The translations under genes were made by a program, and so were the position numbers. Below are positions 653 to 35,093 of a stretch of 46,702 nucleotides of DNA, in pieces. Numbering within the stretch: position 1 is the stretch's first letter; every line of letters starts with the position of its first letter. The notes below the pieces were generated by a model. That model searched no databases. It was not told the DNA's origin and was given only the letters and a program-made list of their open reading frames with translations. Origin of the DNA: Minisyncoccota bacterium (GTDB lineage: Bacteria; Patescibacteriota; Minisyncoccia; JAHIHE01; JAGLIN01); NCBI GenBank assembly GCA_028690055.1, contig JAQVBZ010000013.1, forward strand, positions 1-46,702, read 5' to 3'.

Positions 653-764
653 TCTGTCATTACCGTCAACGCCGTCATCAATTTCACAACATTGTTATTA
701 TGCATCTATGAAATCTTCGGTTCCGTTAAGGATGTGGGTTCTAACTACTCCCACCCAGCGGAGC
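653..764 (+). repeat. direct repeat copy A (~112 bp), partner at 4499-4611
   Basis: tctgtcat(t/c)accgtcaa(c/t)(g/a)ccgtcatcaattt...atctatgaaatcttcggttcc(g/a)ttaagga(t/c)gtgggttctaac(t/a)actccca occurs in both places. Confidence 0.9.
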
Positions 765-924
765 CAGGCAAATTACAACCGTACCCTTTTGGGTGCGTTG
801 TGTTTTGCTTGTTTACATAATAGGATTCGAATTCAAAGGATAACGAACTATTCTAACTGGTCAAAATGTCAACGACGCGTGATGAAGTAGCAAAATAGTT
901 TGACAAATACCTAAACGATGTTAA

Positions 925-996
925 TATGCTAGAGTTTATATCGATTACTTATTCTTGCGAGACAGAATGCGCTTAATCAACTGAACTACTAGCATA
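925..996 (-). tRNA. degenerate tRNA-like sequence (possible tRNA pseudogene)
   Basis: Reverse complement TATGCTAGTAGTTCAGTTGATTAAGCGCATTCTGTCTCGCAAGAATAAGTAATCGATATAAACTCTAGCATA: 8-bp acceptor-like stem TATGCTAG/CTAGCATA, D-arm-like TAGTTCAGTTGATTAAGCGC, ATTCT/AGAAT anticodon-like stem, weak T-arm; 72 nt. Confidence 0.45.
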
Positions 997-1118: not shown

Positions 1119-2180
1119 ATGAATAAGATTAAGAAAGTAGGATGGGGATTTGAAATCTGCAATATGCATTGCAGGCACTGTTACAACTCCTCCACAGAAA
1201 GAGGGTGCAAATATACTTTCGAACAGCTGAAAGAAATCGCGGACAAGATATGTCCGCAGATTGAAGACATTAATTTTGGGACGGGCGAGTTTATCTGCAA
1301 TCCGAATGCCTTGGATCTGGCCCGCTACATCAAAGATACCTATCCGCACGTGAAGATGGCGGTTACTTCCAACGGCTCGACTATTGTCCAGATGGAACCG
1401 GAAGAGGTCAAGCGGTTGTTCAGCGATATTGATATCTCACTCGACTATCCAGACGAGAAGAAACACTGTGACTTTCGTCGTCACGAGAAGTCGTGGGAAT
1501 GGGCAATCGGTGCGCTAAGGGTACTGGATGAACTTCAAATGCCACACAGTATCGTCACCTGTATTACTTCCGAGACTAAAAACGAAGATCTGGAGGGGTT
1601 ACTCGGGATTGCCAGACAATATCGTGCTAACCTGCGGTTTAACTGGTTCCGAAAGGTGGGGCGTGGCAACGAAGATCTCCGCATCACCGCCCGGCGCGCC
1701 TGGGAGATTATTGAGTTTCTGTCGGACAAGGTGGTGTTCGAATGCATTGATCCTATCTTTGCCGGCGTGCTTGGGGTGGAAGCCATCCCGTGTCCGGCAG
1801 GTCGGATCAGCTGCCGGATCCACGCCAGCATGGACATCTCCTGTTATCCGTTCCTGAAGGGTGCGGAATGGAGCGGAGGTAATATCCTCGATAAAGGTAT
1901 TGACTTGGATGCGATTTATACCTCCGCGATTTTCCAGAAGCTGCGCGCTCGCAAGGTCGCGGCCTGTCAGGACTGCGAATTCGAGAAGACTTGCAAAGGG
2001 GGCTGTATTACCCGTGCGGTCTTGCACAATGGGAGTATGAGCGAGGTGGATGACTATTGTCCGGTGGCGGCCAGTCTGGACATCAATAGACTGAAGCGGA
2101 TCAAGATCAGGCTCCAGCCGACGAGCGAACTGGTGCATAACGGCTACCTGTGTACCACTATCTGTCGTCCCATCGTCTAG
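1119..2180 (+). CDS. radical SAM/SPASM domain protein
   Basis: CNMHCRHC (CxxxCxxC) near the N-terminus; C-terminal SPASM-like cysteines CQDCEFEKTCKGGC...YC. Confidence 0.9.
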   Translation: MNKIKKVGWGFEICNMHCRHCYNSSTERGCKYTFEQLKEIADKICPQIEDINFGTGEFICNPNALDLARYIKDTYPHVKMAVTSNGSTIVQMEPEEVKRLFSDIDISLDYPDEKKHCDFRRHEKSWEWAIGALRVLDELQMPHSIVTCITSETKNEDLEGLLGIARQYRANLRFNWFRKVGRGNEDLRITARRAWEIIEFLSDKVVFECIDPIFAGVLGVEAIPCPAGRISCRIHASMDISCYPFLKGAEWSGGNILDKGIDLDAIYTSAIFQKLRARKVAACQDCEFEKTCKGGCITRAVLHNGSMSEVDDYCPVAASLDINRLKRIKIRLQPTSELVHNGYLCTTICRPIV

Positions 2181-2343
2181 CTCCCGGGCAAGCTCGTCCA
2201 CATCGCGTGGAAGGGCTCCCCGGGCGTTAGCCCAAGACGGACGGTTCTGCCATTTTAGTGTCGGAGCTTCGTTGGAAGACCATCGAGCGGTCCCGAACAG
2301 CACATTGAAACATTAAAAACAAGAATAAAAAGGAGCTGATAAG

Positions 2344-3009
2344 ATGAAGAAAGGGGTTTTTGTAGTATTTGAATCGGCACCCAAATGTGGCAAGACGGCC
2401 GCTGCGACCCAACTGGAGGAAAGGATGGAGGTTGTCGGCGAGCGAGTGCTGCATAAACGGGGGGCTCTCAGCGTTTCGGAATTTGCCGAGAACTACAAAG
2501 GGCTGAAAGTCGACGACGATATCGGCTATTCGACGGCGTTCTATTGGGCGGATACGGTGTTCGATACCGGCGACTGCATCGCGCCCGCACTCGCACAGGA
2601 AGTAACAGTTATTCAGGAAAGATATGATCTGTCCGTGGTCGCCTATCGAGAGATACACGGCTACGAGGGGGATTTCTTCCTATTGAAGGAATACCGGAAG
2701 CGGAGGATGATCATCGATCCTGACTTGACGGTATTCTTGACGGCCGCGCCGGAAACGGTGTTCGAGAGGATAAAACAGGGAGCCGATAGCAGTGTGGTGG
2801 ATCTGGCTTTCGTGAATGAGACGAAAAAATTCCAAGGGATGCAGGATTCGATCCGGCAGCATTTGGAAGATCTGGGCAGGAACTACATCACTATCGAGAC
2901 TGATATGATCAGTGTCGAAGAGACGGTCGACATCGTCATGAACGAGATGGTGAAGATCGGTGGAAAGAACCTAATAGATGATACAACGGCAAGCATAGGA
3001 GGAATATGA
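2344..3009 (+). CDS. thymidylate kinase-like P-loop nucleotide kinase
   Basis: VFESAPKCGKTAAATQLEE P-loop plus ERYDLS and dTMP-kinase-like layout; overlaps the next ORF by 4 nt. Confidence 0.75.
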   Translation: MKKGVFVVFESAPKCGKTAAATQLEERMEVVGERVLHKRGALSVSEFAENYKGLKVDDDIGYSTAFYWADTVFDTGDCIAPALAQEVTVIQERYDLSVVAYREIHGYEGDFFLLKEYRKRRMIIDPDLTVFLTAAPETVFERIKQGADSSVVDLAFVNETKKFQGMQDSIRQHLEDLGRNYITIETDMISVEETVDIVMNEMVKIGGKNLIDDTTASIGGI

Positions 3010-3899
3010 ACATGAAAGACATCTTCATAAATTATGATGGGCTGGAGAAATTCAGGCAGCAAAATGAGGTCAAAGTGGCCGTGATTGCACGACCTGACTG
3101 GTTCATGAAGGATGCGAAGATTTCGCACCTGATCGTGGAAACCGAAAGCGGGATACATAATAGGTGCTATCTGACAGAGTATGAGGGCATAAGCTTTATC
3201 ATTGTATATGGCAGGTTTGACCGGGTAAGGGGATTGTCTTCCGACATCAATTACGAATTGACTCAGGAAACCCTGTCTGCGCTCGGCATCGAGACTATCA
3301 TCGGTACTTTTGTCGGCGGTTCGATCAAAGATGAAGACTTTGCGGGGAATATTTATATTCCGCACGATTTCTTCGGGATGGGAAACTATTCCCAATCGCG
3401 CAACCGTCAGAAGGGATTCCGGAACGTGGACATGTACGAACCTTTCTGCGCCGAGGCCAGGGGAGCTCTGGTCAGGGCGGCGGATAATGTGGATTATCCC
3501 GTCAAGCGCGAGGGGGTGTATGTGTGTTTCCACGGATATCCTCGCATCGAAACTAAGGCGGAGCTCGACTTCTATAAAAGGATGGGTTGGGACATTGTCG
3601 GACAGACTCTGGACCCAGAGGCGACCTTGGCGAAAGAAGCCGGTTGCCACTATGCCGCCCTCGCAGGCGCGATTGATGACAGAGCACTCCGACAAAAGTT
3701 TATGGACAACGATCCGACCGCCAAAGATGAGATAGAGCAAAATATCATCGGCGTTAGAAGGAAAACTTTCGAAATCTTTCTGCACGCTCTACCCAGCCTC
3801 GTAAGGAGCGGGTTCGAGTGTAATTGCGAGCAACAAAAGAAACATATCGGGCAGCAGAACTATAAGTTTTACTATATGCCACGGTATCTCGTGGAATGA
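3006..3899 (+). CDS. MTAP/purine nucleoside phosphorylase-like protein
   Basis: HGYPRIETKAELDFYKRMGWDIVGQTLDPEATLAKEAGCHYAALA resembles the MTAP GPRFETPAEI...GADVVGMTxxPEVxLAREAGxxYA region. Confidence 0.8.
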   Translation: MNMKDIFINYDGLEKFRQQNEVKVAVIARPDWFMKDAKISHLIVETESGIHNRCYLTEYEGISFIIVYGRFDRVRGLSSDINYELTQETLSALGIETIIGTFVGGSIKDEDFAGNIYIPHDFFGMGNYSQSRNRQKGFRNVDMYEPFCAEARGALVRAADNVDYPVKREGVYVCFHGYPRIETKAELDFYKRMGWDIVGQTLDPEATLAKEAGCHYAALAGAIDDRALRQKFMDNDPTAKDEIEQNIIGVRRKTFEIFLHALPSLVRSGFECNCEQQKKHIGQQNYKFYYMPRYLVE

Positions 3900-4036
3900 A
3901 ATAGACATTTGAAACGATTCAAGTGTTGGCCTAAAAACCGACACTTTTTTATTGTATTGGGCAGGACTTGAATATATATCGGTATTATATATACTATGGA
4001 TAGGGAGAGTAACCATTATTAACCTCATAAAATCAT

Positions 4037-4387
4037 ATGGAAGAATATCTGGGCAAGATAGTTCATATCATCATGGACCGGCCGCTGGACAGTCTGCATC
4101 CGAAGCACGGTTTTCGATATGAAGTGAATTACGGATACGTTCCGGATACGGTGAGTGGTGACGGGGAAGAAATAGACGCGTATGTTCTCGGTGTGGATAT
4201 CCCATTGAAGGAATATGAGGGCAAATGCGTGGCGATTATACGCCGTCAAGAGGAGGATGACGATAAACTGATAATCATTCCTCGCGCAATGGGGGATATT
4301 ACCGACGATGAAATCATCAAAGCCACACATTTTCAAGAAAAGCCATATCATATAGAGATAATCAGGCCGGGCCGGATTGCGAAATAA
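4037..4387 (+). CDS. short inorganic pyrophosphatase-family protein
   Basis: HPKHGFRYEVNYGYVPDTVSGDGEEIDAYVLGVD resembles the soluble PPase active-site region. Confidence 0.8.
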   Translation: MEEYLGKIVHIIMDRPLDSLHPKHGFRYEVNYGYVPDTVSGDGEEIDAYVLGVDIPLKEYEGKCVAIIRRQEEDDDKLIIIPRAMGDITDDEIIKATHFQEKPYHIEIIRPGRIAK

Positions 4388-4498: not shown

Positions 4499-4611
4499 TC
4501 TGTCATCACCGTCAATACCGTCATCAATTTCGCAACATTGTTGTTTACATATCTATGAAATCTTCGGTTCCATTAAGGACGTGGGTTCTAACAACTCCCA
4601 TCCAGTGGAGC
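4499..4611 (+). repeat. direct repeat copy B (~113 bp), partner at 653-764
   Basis: Visual alignment with copy A; one-nt length difference near gtttacatatctatg. Confidence 0.9.
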
Positions 4612-4901: not shown

Positions 4902-5891
4902 ATGAAAGATAAAAAAACAGAGAATAACCTAATAATCTATCAGGCGAAAAACGGAGCTATAGAACTCCGCGGTGATTTTGAACATGAAAATATTTGGGCA
5001 ACACAGGCACAAATTTCAGAAGCATTCGGGGTGGATGTGCGCACTGTGAATGAACATATAAAAAATATCTACAAAACAAAAGAACTTGAGGATAGGTCAA
5101 CTGTCCGGAAATTCCGGATAGTTCAAAAAGAAGGAAAAAGAGATGTCGAACGTGAGGTTATGCACTACAATTTGGATATGATCATTTCTGTCGGTTATCG
5201 AGTCAATTCAAAAATCGCCACAAAATTTCGCCAGTGGGCAACAAAAACCTTAAAAGACCATCTCGTCAAAGGATACACCATTAACCGCAAGCAAATCGCG
5301 AAGAATTATGATGCATTTATGCAAGCGGTCGCCAGCGTTCAAAGTCTTTTGCCCGAGCATATCACGCTTGACCCCAAAGCGGTGCTGGAACTTATCAAGG
5401 AATTTGCCGGAACTTGGGTAGTGTTGGACGCTTACGACAGAGAGTCGCTTGCTTCCGCTGGCACAATCAAGAAAGCGGTCAAATTTTCCGCCGTGGAATT
5501 GACCGAGGTAATCGCAAGTTTGCGCAGGGAATTGATCAAGAAAGGCGAAGCGACGGAACTTTTTGCGCAGGAGAAAAGGTTGGGGAGCGTTGAGGGCATC
5601 GTGGGTAATGTGATGCAATCATTCGACGGCAAGCCACTCTACGCGACCGCCGAAGAAAAAGCCTCCCATCTTCTTTATTTTATGATCAAAGACCATCCGT
5701 TCAGCGACGGCAACAAGCGTTCGGGTGCGTTTGCTTTTGTTTGGTTTTTGCGCAAGGCGGGAATCAAAGGGGCGAGAAATATCAACCCAAGCGCACTTAC
5801 GGCACTCACGCTTTTGATTGCAGAAAGCAGTCCAGACAAAAAAGGCCAAATGGTGGCATTAGTCACCACTCTTTTGTCAGTAAAGAGATAG
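4902..5891 (+). CDS. RhuM-family / Fic-Doc fusion protein
   Basis: N-terminal RhuM-like IWATQAQISEAFGVDVRTVNEHIKNIYKTKEL; C-terminal Fic/Doc motif HPFSDGNKRSG. Confidence 0.9.
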   Translation: MKDKKTENNLIIYQAKNGAIELRGDFEHENIWATQAQISEAFGVDVRTVNEHIKNIYKTKELEDRSTVRKFRIVQKEGKRDVEREVMHYNLDMIISVGYRVNSKIATKFRQWATKTLKDHLVKGYTINRKQIAKNYDAFMQAVASVQSLLPEHITLDPKAVLELIKEFAGTWVVLDAYDRESLASAGTIKKAVKFSAVELTEVIASLRRELIKKGEATELFAQEKRLGSVEGIVGNVMQSFDGKPLYATAEEKASHLLYFMIKDHPFSDGNKRSGAFAFVWFLRKAGIKGARNINPSALTALTLLIAESSPDKKGQMVALVTTLLSVKR

Positions 5892-20325: not shown

Positions 20326-20643
20326 ATGCCGGAATTAAAAGATGAACCTACGATGAAGGATTTTCAGAACTATGTGACTGAGTTGGAGCAGGAACGCGGA
20401 TTTACGGAGCAGACAGCATTGCAACGGGCACTTCATTTGGGCGAGGAAATAGGTGAACTCTTCAAGGCTATTCGTAAGGCGGAAAAAATGAAGATGGATG
20501 AGAATTCGAAGGTGACTTCAGTCGATGAGGAATTGGCGGATGTTTTGATTTTTGTGTGTTCTATCGCCAATCGCTATGATATCGATTTAGAGAAGGCTTT
20601 TCGAGAGAAGGAGGAGGTAAATAAGAAGCGGGTTTGGCTGTAG
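20326..20643 (+). CDS. MazG-like nucleotide pyrophosphohydrolase
   Basis: ALHLGEEIGELFKAIRKAEK...VDEELADVLIFVCSIANRYDIDLEKAFREKEEVNKKR. Confidence 0.88.
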   Translation: MPELKDEPTMKDFQNYVTELEQERGFTEQTALQRALHLGEEIGELFKAIRKAEKMKMDENSKVTSVDEELADVLIFVCSIANRYDIDLEKAFREKEEVNKKRVWL

Positions 20644-20937
20644 AGACGCATAATCATGCGTCTCTGAATGCGGGGTGGAAAATTTGATGTGGCGAATTAG
20701 ACGCAAAATATTGCGTATTTACAGATAAATTGGGTTAAAGATGAATATAATCAGGGTATTTTTTGTAGAGTCTATGAATACGGGGTGGAAAATTTGATGT
20801 GGCGAATTAGACGCAAAATATTGCGTCTCTACAGAATGCGGGATGGATTGTTTAGTTCGAAAGATTAGACGCAAATTGTTGTATTTCAATGATATGCAAT
20901 GGAATGCCGATACAAGACGCAAAATATTGCGTCTCTA
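20641..20937. repeat. REP-like palindrome cluster upstream of the RAYT
   Basis: GAGACGCATAATCATGCGTCTC and several AGACGCAAAATATTGCGTCT-type palindromes plus shared GAATGCGGGGTGGAAAATTTGATGTGGCGAATT spacer. Confidence 0.9.
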
Positions 20938-21011
20938 CCGGGAATATCTGATTTTGTAGTATAATGTAGATATGGTATTTTGTTTCGTGTTATAACTCAT
21001 GAAACTGATTC

Positions 21012-21629
21012 ATGATGAAGGATAATTCTAAATTCAAAAATAAATATCGTATCGCTTCGGCACGGCTGCGTGAATTTGATTATTCTACGGATGGATACTA
21101 TTTTGTCACTATCTGCACTAAAAATCATCGACATTTTTTCGGGGAAATTGCGGATGGGGAAATGCGTTTGTCGGAGATGGGAAAGATTGCGCAAAAATGT
21201 TGGGCGGAGATTCCCGAGCATTTTCCGTTTGTGAAATTAGATGAATTTGTTGTAATGCCGAATCATATCCACGGAATAATAATTATTGATCATAGTCCCG
21301 TAGAGACGCATAATTATGCGTCTCCGGTTTGTGAGAAAAGCATAGAGAAGCAGGATCTTATGGTTTTACAGGATATCAAAAAGACGCAAAATATTGCGTC
21401 TCTACGGGATGTAAATGGAAGTGGAGCGGGCGGGCAATCGGGAAATCTGGCGTCTGTTGTCAGGGGTTTTAAAATCGGTGTTACAAAATTTGCAAAAGCG
21501 AATCGGATAAATTTCGCTTGGCAACCGCGGTTTTATGACCACGTTATCAGGAAAGATGAATCGTTGTCGAGAATTCGGGAATATATTCGCTATAATCCCA
21601 TAAATTGGAATAAAGACCAATATAATTAA
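21012..21629 (+). mobile_element. REP-associated tyrosine transposase (RAYT, Y1/IS200-like)
   Basis: YYFVTICTKNHRHFFGEI; VVMPNHIHGIIII (HUH); LSRIREYIRYNPINW (catalytic Tyr region). Confidence 0.92.
21302..21403. repeat. two REP-like palindromes inside the RAYT coding sequence
   Basis: GAGACGCATAATTATGCGTCTC (~21303-21324) and AGACGCAAAATATTGCGTCTCTAC (21382 on). Confidence 0.9.
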
Positions 21630-21640
21630 GGTATTTTTTG

Positions 21641-21782
21641 TAGAGACGCATGATTATGCGTCTCTGAATGCGGGGTGGAAAATTTTGATGTGGCGAATTA
21701 GACGCAAAATATTGCGTCTCTACGGAATGCAGGATAGAATGTTTTTGACTGAAAGATTAGACGCAAAATGTTGCGTTTCTAC
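21641..21782. repeat. REP-like palindrome cluster downstream of the RAYT
   Basis: GAGACGCATGATTATGCGTCTC, AGACGCAAAATATTGCGTCTC, AGACGCAAAATGTTGCGTTTC with shared spacer. Confidence 0.9.
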
Positions 21783-21812
21783 GGGGGAATAGATTCGTTT
21801 AAGTTTAAATAT

Positions 21813-32603: not shown

Positions 32604-35093
32604 TTGAAACAAATGAAAATCTTAAAGCATCTGCTGTTTCTTGTTCTTATTTCATTTTCTTTTTGTGTCTCTGCCGGTCCTTGTATGGCGGCAACTTTAA
32701 ACTGGAAGGGGTATACTTGGACTTTGGCTAACGGTGACGCATGGGATGCCGAATTAAATACTTATTCAAGTTCTAATGTTGTCGGTCCGGATGCTAACGG
32801 CTATATCACTCTTAAATTAACTAATCCATCAGGAGAAGATCCTATCGGAGCGGATATGTATTGTGAGCAGGATAGGTTCGGTTATGGGACTTACACTACT
32901 GTCATCGGGTCAAGATTGGATAATCTTGACAAAAACATCGTTTTTAGCGGGATGACAGTGAGGCGTGATAAAGATCCTTGGTTTGAGTTTGACGGAAGCG
33001 AGGCATCTCGATGGGATTATTGGGATTCCGATGTAGAGATAAGCCATGAGCTTTGGTTTGGTGATGATTATGATGTGGACTGGCATGGAGATTCGATGAG
33101 TATCGCTTCGGATTCGGTTCAGACTCACCGTATGGTATGGGAACCGGGCAAGGTGACCTTTGATTCTTTTTTGGGAACAGGTATCGGCGGTACCAATTAT
33201 TTCCATACGGTCATAACACGGGATGTACCTGAACCGACTGATGACGAATATGTCGAGTTTATGATGTGGGTTTATGCTGACGGATATCCAAACTCCGGTG
33301 ATTGGGACGTACCTGCCACTAGTGTAGTGGTGCGAGATTTCACATTCGTATCTTATTATGCGCATGCTCTGAATGTCACGAATGGTACTGGCGATGGTAC
33401 TTACGAATCGGGTGATAGTATCACCATCACCGCTGACGCTCCATCTTCGGGACAAGTATTCGATAAATGGACAGGGGATACTTCCTATCTTGCCAGTACA
33501 ACTTCGGCTACCACCACGGTTACTATGCCCGCCCAAGCAGTCGCCATTACCGCTACTTATAAGACGGCTCCCGTTACTACTTACGCCTTGACCGTCAATA
33601 GCGGTACCGGGGACGGTTATTACACTTCGGGGGCAGGTATCTCTATCGCCGCTGATGCGCCCGTAAATGGTAAGGTCTTCGACCGATGGACGGGAGATAC
33701 TACATATCTCTCCGGTATCTACACCGCGACTGCAACCGTGACGATGCCCGCTCAAAGTATTGCTCTTACGGCTACTTATAAAGATGCAACTATTGCCACT
33801 TACGCCTTGACTGTCACGAGCGGTACCGGAGACGGTTCGTACGCTTCGGGAACTAGTGTTACTATCACTGCCGACGCTCCCGTCTCGGGGCAGGTCTTTG
33901 ATAGATGGACGGGGGACACGGCTTATCTTTCAAGTATTTATACTTCGACCGCTAATGTAACGGTGCCGTCACAGGCTATTGTCCTTATCGCTACCTACAA
34001 GACGGCAACCTCTATAACTTACACTTTGACTGTCACGAGCGGTACCGGGGATGGAACTTATGCTACAGGAACGAGCGTCACTATCACTGCCGACGATCCC
34101 GCCTCGGGACAGGTATTTGATAGATGGACGGGGAGCACTCCTTATGTATCCGATACTACTTTATCCACAACTACAGTCACTATGCCTGCGCAGGATATTA
34201 CTCTTGTCGCTGTCTATGAAATCAGTTCCTCGGTTTCTTATGAAGATGATACCCTACTTCGGACTAAGGGGTCTACCGAGATATTTATAATTGTGGACGG
34301 CAAGAAAAAATTGATACCGAATCTTGATGAATTCGAAAGTTTGGGATATGAGTGGATTGATGTACTTATAGTTACTCCGGAAACGCTCGATGCCATTCCT
34401 GATTATACGGGAGAAAACGTTACACTCGGTAATTATAATAATGGTACCCTTATCCAGACTGCCGATTCTTTCAAAGTATACGTAATAATCGATGGCAAGA
34501 AGAAATGGATACCGACTCCTGAAGTATTCGAACAGTTGGGGTATAAATGGACTAGTATCGTACAATTATCTCGAGGTGTTCTTGATTCTATTTCTGACTA
34601 CGAAGATAATCTCATTCGGAGCATTGGAGACTATAAAGTGTATCTGGTGGTGAGCGGAGTAAAAAGACATATCCCGAATCCGGACATTTTCTTGAATTAT
34701 GGTTTCAAATGGGAGGAAGTAAAAGATGTACCGCAGGAGACTATAGATAAATACCGCAATACTTATCTTATCAAGGCTTCAAAGACTGAGGGTGTCTACT
34801 ATTTGTCTCCGCAAGAAATCAAAAAGCTTATTCCTACTACGGAGATTTTCAATTCTTACAATGACAAAACTTCTGATGTTCAGATTATCTCTCAAGTAGA
34901 AATGAATTACTATCCTCTCTCCAACCTTATAAAATTGAGTGGCACTAATGACATCTATCTTGTAGAGGGCACTGTAAAAAGAAAGATTCCTACTGCTGCT
35001 ATTTTCGACAAGTATAGGTTCAACTGGAATTATGTGCTTATTGTCAATCAAACGGAATTCAATTTTTATCAAACCGGGGCAGATCTGAAATAG
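32604..35093 (+). CDS. large secreted protein: GH16/lectin-like N-terminal domain, four divergent InlB B-type repeats, C-terminal repeats
   Basis: Signal peptide; four units ALTVTSGTGDGxYxSGTSVTITADAPVSGQVFDRWTGD; C-terminal repeats of (D)GKKKWIPTPEVFEQLGYKW type. Confidence 0.8.
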   Translation: MKQMKILKHLLFLVLISFSFCVSAGPCMAATLNWKGYTWTLANGDAWDAELNTYSSSNVVGPDANGYITLKLTNPSGEDPIGADMYCEQDRFGYGTYTTVIGSRLDNLDKNIVFSGMTVRRDKDPWFEFDGSEASRWDYWDSDVEISHELWFGDDYDVDWHGDSMSIASDSVQTHRMVWEPGKVTFDSFLGTGIGGTNYFHTVITRDVPEPTDDEYVEFMMWVYADGYPNSGDWDVPATSVVVRDFTFVSYYAHALNVTNGTGDGTYESGDSITITADAPSSGQVFDKWTGDTSYLASTTSATTTVTMPAQAVAITATYKTAPVTTYALTVNSGTGDGYYTSGAGISIAADAPVNGKVFDRWTGDTTYLSGIYTATATVTMPAQSIALTATYKDATIATYALTVTSGTGDGSYASGTSVTITADAPVSGQVFDRWTGDTAYLSSIYTSTANVTVPSQAIVLIATYKTATSITYTLTVTSGTGDGTYATGTSVTITADDPASGQVFDRWTGSTPYVSDTTLSTTTVTMPAQDITLVAVYEISSSVSYEDDTLLRTKGSTEIFIIVDGKKKLIPNLDEFESLGYEWIDVLIVTPETLDAIPDYTGENVTLGNYNNGTLIQTADSFKVYVIIDGKKKWIPTPEVFEQLGYKWTSIVQLSRGVLDSISDYEDNLIRSIGDYKVYLVVSGVKRHIPNPDIFLNYGFKWEEVKDVPQETIDKYRNTYLIKASKTEGVYYLSPQEIKKLIPTTEIFNSYNDKTSDVQIISQVEMNYYPLSNLIKLSGTNDIYLVEGTVKRKIPTAAIFDKYRFNWNYVLIVNQTEFNFYQTGADLK

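Follow-up and report, generated by a model that had tools for sequence, protein, structure and literature searches.

Rare chemistry arises when nucleosides are remodelled by radical SAM enzymes, as in the oxetane rings of albucidin and oxetanocin and, perhaps, in nucleocidin with its fluorinated sugar. The nucleocidin cluster of Streptomyces calvus carries NucPNP, a phosphorylase active on MTA, alongside the radical SAM protein NucJ (PMC8694150). Albucidin formation needs two radical SAM enzymes, one of which is OxsB-like (PMC7074753, PMC13331322). Here we describe a cassette in a Minisyncoccota bacterium that is akin to these known nucleoside-tailoring clusters but is not an established pathway. 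It lies within positions 1 to 46,702 of contig JAQVBZ010000013.1, a stretch referred to below as the window; the host assembly is a 54-contig draft of 1.46 Mb that is 99.5% complete, and relatives have genomes of 0.5-1.5 Mb. The open-access literature yielded no description of this exact gene set, although subscription journals may hold one.

The cassette resembles the nucleocidin cluster, whose nucleoside pathway likewise couples a nucleoside phosphorylase to a radical SAM protein (PMC8694150). NucPNP is active on both MTA and adenosine, whereas its counterpart in the window lacks canonical MTAP motifs, NucPNP and NucJ being compared here by description. The likeness to the albucidin (AlsA/AlsB) and oxetanocin (OxsB/OxsA) systems lies in the relatives of the cassette, which, as in albucidin, pair a cobalamin-dependent radical SAM protein nearest to OxsB with a second radical SAM protein. 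In contrast, no cobalamin radical SAM protein was matched in the genome of the window, and the cassette has no OxsA-like gene. AlbA has moreover been described as biotin-synthase-like, whereas the radical SAM protein of the window is of the SPASM type.

The core of the cassette is a GC-rich operon of three genes on the forward strand, encoding a SPASM radical SAM protein (1119..2180; 353 amino acids), a kinase of the thymidylate kinase superfamily and fold (2344..3009; 221 amino acids) and a protein of MTAP/PNP fold (3006..3899; 297 amino acids). The three co-directional genes, and the 4-nt overlap between the second and the third, lie exactly where the initial annotation had placed them. Its impression of a GC-rich stretch is likewise borne out by the composition: the GC contents of the three genes (0.51, 0.51 and 0.49, in the order given) exceed that of the window (0.42), and their GC3 values (0.63, 0.63 and 0.60) exceed those of the other open reading frames, which fall mostly between 0.35 and 0.55. 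Good ribosome-binding sites precede the kinase and MTAP-like genes. A promoter-like site is present upstream of the operon (900..927, forward strand; TTGACA-16-TAATAT with a TG before the -10 element, i.e. an extended -10), and a stem-loop with a T run, resembling an intrinsic terminator, is present at its end (3921..3946, forward strand; z = -2.8); both sites are consensus matches from a scan that rose weakly above shuffled sequences.

Two elements went unmentioned in the initial annotation. A short gene for an inorganic-pyrophosphatase-like (PPase-like) protein (4037..4387, forward strand; 116 amino acids) follows the terminator-like site and is probably a separate transcription unit. Furthermore, a direct repeat of ∼112 bp is present in two copies genome-wide, at 654..764 and 4500..4611 of the window (both on the forward strand, 88% identical to each other), and these bracket the four genes. 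The repeat matches no tRNA or Rfam family; it folds moderately, and no clear recombination-site structure was seen in it.

The segment between the repeats was probably acquired laterally, as judged from its GC3 contrast, the direct repeats themselves and the rarity of the radical SAM protein in the host phylum. Homologues of the gene on the left flank are present in close relatives of the host, and the family of a gene further along the window is spread across the same relatives, a pattern that suggests a native backbone and a block brought in from elsewhere. Because no integrase is encoded within the segment, its mobility is something that we infer. A phage or viral source was considered and set aside, as searches of phage and viral contigs returned no relatives of the radical SAM, kinase or MTAP-like proteins; a plasmid search returned none of the kinase. 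Elsewhere in the window, a RhuM/Fic-domain protein is encoded just beyond the right repeat (4902-5891), and a protein with InlB-like B-repeats (32604-35093) has ∼40 matching stretches in its own genome, and is probably a member of an expanded surface-protein family. Repeats of ∼50-70 nt with palindromic cores (GTAGAGACGCATAATCATGCGTCTC) occupy positions 20639-21783.

The first protein of the operon matches the Pfam family Radical_SAM (PF04055, E 3e-15) and the SPASM-domain model TIGR04085 (31.2 bits against a cut-off of 27). Its cluster-binding motif CxxxCxxC, at residues 14-21, reads CNMHCRHC, and it ends in the tail LVHNGYLCTTICRP. A conserved C-terminal tail, LVHMDYLCTWIGKP, marks a scattered family of radical SAM proteins to which the window protein belongs; this protein carries the tail form LVHxxYLCTxIxxP and is linked to a gene of the MTAP-like clade described below. 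The best relatives in the plasmid search, from Enterococcus, Streptomyces clavuligerus and Phaeobacter, all end in LVHMDYLCTWIG[KS]P. A genome scan located 23 loci of the family with a nearly invariant tail, variants being NGYLCTTICRP in the window and RGYLCTLIFAP in a Parcubacterium. This uniformity is partly a product of selection, because one of the two scan patterns included LVH..YLC; the plasmid matches were obtained without that pattern. The window protein is a divergent member (26-33% identity) and the sole one among 380 genomes of the host phylum. An AF2 model (pLDDT 78) has as its best match in the PDB the blasticidin S enzyme BlsE (7vob, E 1.8e-9, TM 0.55-0.59), at 15% identity and with a fold-level similarity that is common to many SPASM enzymes. 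Structure prediction drew on a reduced alignment without plasmid proteins. At another locus of the family, in Parcubacteria GWA2_36_10 (L059:2044-3053), the tail-motif gene is present as two overlapping frames with the middle part missing, and is either a broken gene or a sequencing error.

The radical SAM and MTAP-like genes are associated in distant bacteria. When the window proteins were compared with the loci by tblastn, an MTAP-like gene was found 1-2.5 kb from the radical SAM gene in nine actinobacterial clusters. A profile search over the 23 genomes gave a bimodal result, with members of the MTAP-like clade scoring 255-488 bits and all other MTAPs ∼100 bits or less. Eleven of these genomes have the clade, and in each of the 11 it is on the same contig as the radical SAM gene. 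The two members beyond the actinobacterial nine are on radical SAM contigs of Rhizobium (29,745 bases) and Methylocystis (27,323 bases), the former carrying the radical SAM, MTAP-like and PPase-like genes together. By an arithmetic estimate, two given genes of a 5-11 Mb genome would be ∼16 kb or less apart in well under 1% of cases; linkage in 11 of 11 genomes is therefore not attributable to chance. Within the host phylum the clade is confined to the window (426.9 bits), 11 other genomes having ordinary MTAP matches of at most 113 bits. The initial annotation had proposed searching for co-occurrence of all three operon genes, and the outcome is divided: the radical SAM and MTAP-like genes travel together, whereas the slot of the kinase is not conserved.

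Other neighbours of the pair include several proteins resembling nucleoside enzymes. Thymidylate-synthase (ThyA)-like and nucleoside-deoxyribosyltransferase-like proteins are encoded nearby in Nocardia, adenosine-deaminase (ADA)-like and TMK-like proteins in an alphaproteobacterial MAG, and a 5′-deoxyadenosine-deaminase-like amidohydrolase (162 bits, under its cut-off) in a Parcubacterium. A cobalamin radical SAM gene is present at the start of many clusters and was not seen in several other loci of the family; among PDB entries, the product of the Parcubacterium gene comes closest to OxsB (1.9e-14). Remnants of a lost gene of this kind were sought by blastx in the gaps at 620-1130 and 2170-2350 of the window, and nothing was found. 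Genes for aminotransferases, acetyltransferases (GNAT), NRPS-like and nitrogenase-like proteins and exporters also occur around the family. The aminotransferase, acetyltransferase, NRPS-like and exporter neighbours fit small-molecule biosynthesis, though not exclusively that of nucleosides, and because some members sit among genes for enzymes unrelated to nucleosides, the shared chemistry need not take place on nucleosides. In a rumen Clostridia MAG (L046:2742-6254), the tail-motif gene follows genes judged by eye to be NifH-, NifD- and NifK-like, together with other radical SAM genes. The cluster of Nocardia arizonensis encodes a SelD-like protein (L038:8200-9249; selenide, water dikinase model, 256 bits against a cut-off of 125), for which selenium chemistry or a repurposed kinase is a possibility.

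The third protein of the operon shares the fold and superfamily of MTAP. It matches PNP_UDP_1 (PF01048; 62.3 bits, cut-off 25.1) and scores 93.8 bits against the MTAP equivalog TIGR01694, short of the cut-off of 274.85. A model of moderate confidence (AF2, pLDDT 75.8, pTM 0.80) matches human MTAP (3oze, E 5.8e-17). The protein is 51% identical to its Rhizobium homologue and 48% to that of N. arizonensis. In contrast to this shared fold, the cluster-linked proteins, including that of the window, form a clade apart from canonical MTAPs with support of 100/100, in a tree that has a long branch among its canonical rows. The GG[ST]G loop is missing from every one of the eight cluster-linked proteins compared, a four-residue gap taking its place in the alignment; all eight likewise have YGR[FH] instead of RHG and GQ[ST]xD instead of [GN]MT, with loss of the canonical MTAP methionine. 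Among the canonical MTAPs compared, G[GS][ST]G is present in 11 of 11 and RHG in 10 of 11, and [GN]MT is likewise retained. We take the GG[ST]G, RHG and [GN]MT positions to bind phosphate and ribose in MTAP, and because these motifs are missing, ordinary phosphorolysis of MTA or 5′-deoxyadenosine is unlikely. The initial annotation had suggested that the phosphorylase could cleave 5′-deoxyadenosine made by the radical SAM enzyme; the loss of GG[ST]G, Arg-His and Met throughout the eight argues against such a simple reaction, which the sequences make improbable.

The kinase belongs to Thymidylate_kin (PF02223; 48.4 bits, cut-off 27) and falls short of the dTMP-kinase model TIGR00041 (57.6 bits, cut-off 83.25). 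Its motifs are non-canonical (SAPKCGKT and QERYDLS): the first glycine of the G-x4-GK[ST] P-loop, the EPGG motif and the dTMP-kinase signature are all missing. The signature, run as a regular expression, is weak evidence when taken alone, because the TMK of L059 fails it and yet passes TIGR00041. No orthologue of the kinase was found in the other radical SAM clusters; the kinases of two loci (L053 and L059) are only distant relatives, and that of L059 resembles an ordinary tmk product.

The small PPase-like protein matches the Pfam Pyrophosphatase family (33.1 bits, cut-off 23.5). It retains the central motif (YEVNYGYVPDTVSGDGEEIDAYV), and the N-terminal part of the pyrophosphatase fold is unaligned. 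It is 57% identical to its homologue in a Parcubacterium and 44-45% to those of Nocardia. Such genes are present in radical SAM clusters of Rhizobium, two Nocardia, Phaeobacter, Enterococcus, Sporolactobacillus and a Parcubacterium; members of the family are frequent elsewhere too, so the MTAP-like gene has the stronger link to the radical SAM gene. A plasmid of Streptococcus suis carries a short PPase-like gene between pyrF and pyrE (L119:2307-4091), a setting that hints at a pyrophosphate-removing role beside phosphoribosyl transfer.

Taken together, we lean somewhat towards the view that the repeats enclose a compact pathway, acquired laterally, for tailoring a nucleoside or nucleotide. The TMK-fold kinase would phosphorylate a nucleoside or nucleoside monophosphate. 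The SPASM enzyme, judging from its partners and the weak structural match to BlsE, may carry out hydrogen-abstraction chemistry on the sugar of that nucleotide or on a sugar phosphate. The MTAP-like protein would make or break the N-glycosidic bond of the modified compound, with something other than free phosphate as nucleophile or leaving group, as the loss of the presumed phosphate site suggests, and the small PPase-like protein might pull a pyrophosphate-releasing step. The cassette may be incomplete, because the cobalamin radical SAM partner and any exporter are absent. The dedicated nucleoside pathway of the initial annotation gains from the co-occurrence of the radical SAM and MTAP-like genes in distant bacteria and from their nucleoside-enzyme neighbours. 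More tentatively, the cassette could represent an undescribed class of pathway, in which an enzyme of PNP/MTAP fold working without free phosphate and a tail-motif radical SAM enzyme build or dismantle a modified nucleoside. It might then have spread, as a repeat-bounded cassette, between Actinomycetota, Alphaproteobacteria and a small-genome (Patescibacteria-like) lineage, with an unusual TMK-fold kinase taking the place of the kinases of other clusters.

Two other readings would divide the operon into parts with separate purposes. The radical SAM enzyme could have an unrelated target, with the MTAP-like protein merely removing 5′-deoxyadenosine, an inhibitor of radical SAM enzymes. Two papers describe this compound as a toxic by-product that cells need to remove (PMC8102628, PMC6079011), the MTAP fold is in keeping with such a task, and in three genomes (a named Parcubacterium and two of the host phylum) an MTAP gene overlaps or abuts the gene of another SPASM radical SAM protein. 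At these loci (L093:4275-6411, reverse strand; L105:1405-3632, reverse strand; L106:3-2244, forward strand), the MTAP gene directly follows the different radical SAM gene and is itself followed by a gene for an ABC-F-like ATPase, an independent pair that would suit 5′-deoxyadenosine disposal. However, GG[ST]G and RHG are intact in the MTAPs of L093 and L105, the two compared, and both are lost, along with the methionine, in the clade of the window. In addition, most actinobacterial hosts retain an ordinary MTAP, which leaves no obvious need for a second disposal enzyme, and we regard this reading as rather unlikely. The kinase, for its part, could be the dTMP kinase of the organism itself, lodged in a foreign block whose other genes are unrelated passengers. 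At E ≤ 10, no PF02223 protein besides it turned up in the nearly complete draft, the further hits being short or adenylate-kinase matches, of which the strongest are adenylate kinases; a candidate second tmk on contig C9 proved to be adenylate kinases adjoining secY/map. The initial annotation had counted a kinase that is the sole housekeeping tmk of the genome as a sign against its proposal; the apparent uniqueness of the kinase points that way, and its missing motifs do not. Against a housekeeping role stand these motifs and the missed TIGR00041 cut-off, the distantly related and quite different TMKs of relatives (one of which has none detected), and the place of the gene in a GC-rich operon with its own ribosome-binding site. 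The sequence and setting of the kinase lead us to favour a dedicated role, and to consider it unlikely that it serves as the housekeeping enzyme.

Other proposals start from the radical SAM enzyme. Prokaryotic viperins with kinases resemble the cassette in joining a radical SAM gene to a nucleotide-kinase-like gene, and by analogy the enzyme, supplied by the kinase, might produce a modified nucleotide that acts as an antimetabolite against phage. Weak PADLOC matches point this way, namely of the radical SAM protein to pVip (5.8e-15), of the kinase to PDC-M51B (1.3e-9) and VakA (4e-5), and of the cobalamin radical SAM protein of L059 to PDC-M51A (6.7e-9), and viperin structures occur among the fold matches. 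Nevertheless, the protein scores far below the cut-off of the NCBIfam viperin model (NF038283, 44.1 against 180 bits), its SPASM domain and C-terminal tail are foreign to viperins, and its relatives reside in biosynthesis-like clusters, several of them with exporters, which makes a role in defence improbable. Modification of a RiPP-type peptide is a further idea, raised in part by the initial annotation, and among NCBIfam models the protein comes nearest to MftC (TIGR03962), the maturase of the mycofactocin peptide, with SuiB and sactipeptide maturases among the fold matches. Yet the score of 105.8 bits against MftC is well below its cut-off of 265, and the protein likewise fails the cut-offs of other peptide maturases. 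Nor was a gene for a small precursor recognised within the segment, and the conserved associations are with nucleoside enzymes; peptide modification thus finds no support and appears very improbable.

The nucleoside-tailoring reading gives the locus its wider interest. The conserved pair of radical SAM and MTAP-like genes flags uncharacterised clusters in several phyla that are ready for expression and assay, and because the distant clusters with this pair resemble pathways to unusual nucleosides, the group offers an entry point to nucleoside chemistry that is still unexplored. The MTAP-like clade provides a case in which to examine how the reaction of a nucleoside phosphorylase changes once its phosphate site has been lost. 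Finally, a minimal version of such a cassette in a small-genome bacterium is unusual, its radical SAM gene being present in one of the 380 genomes sampled from the phylum.
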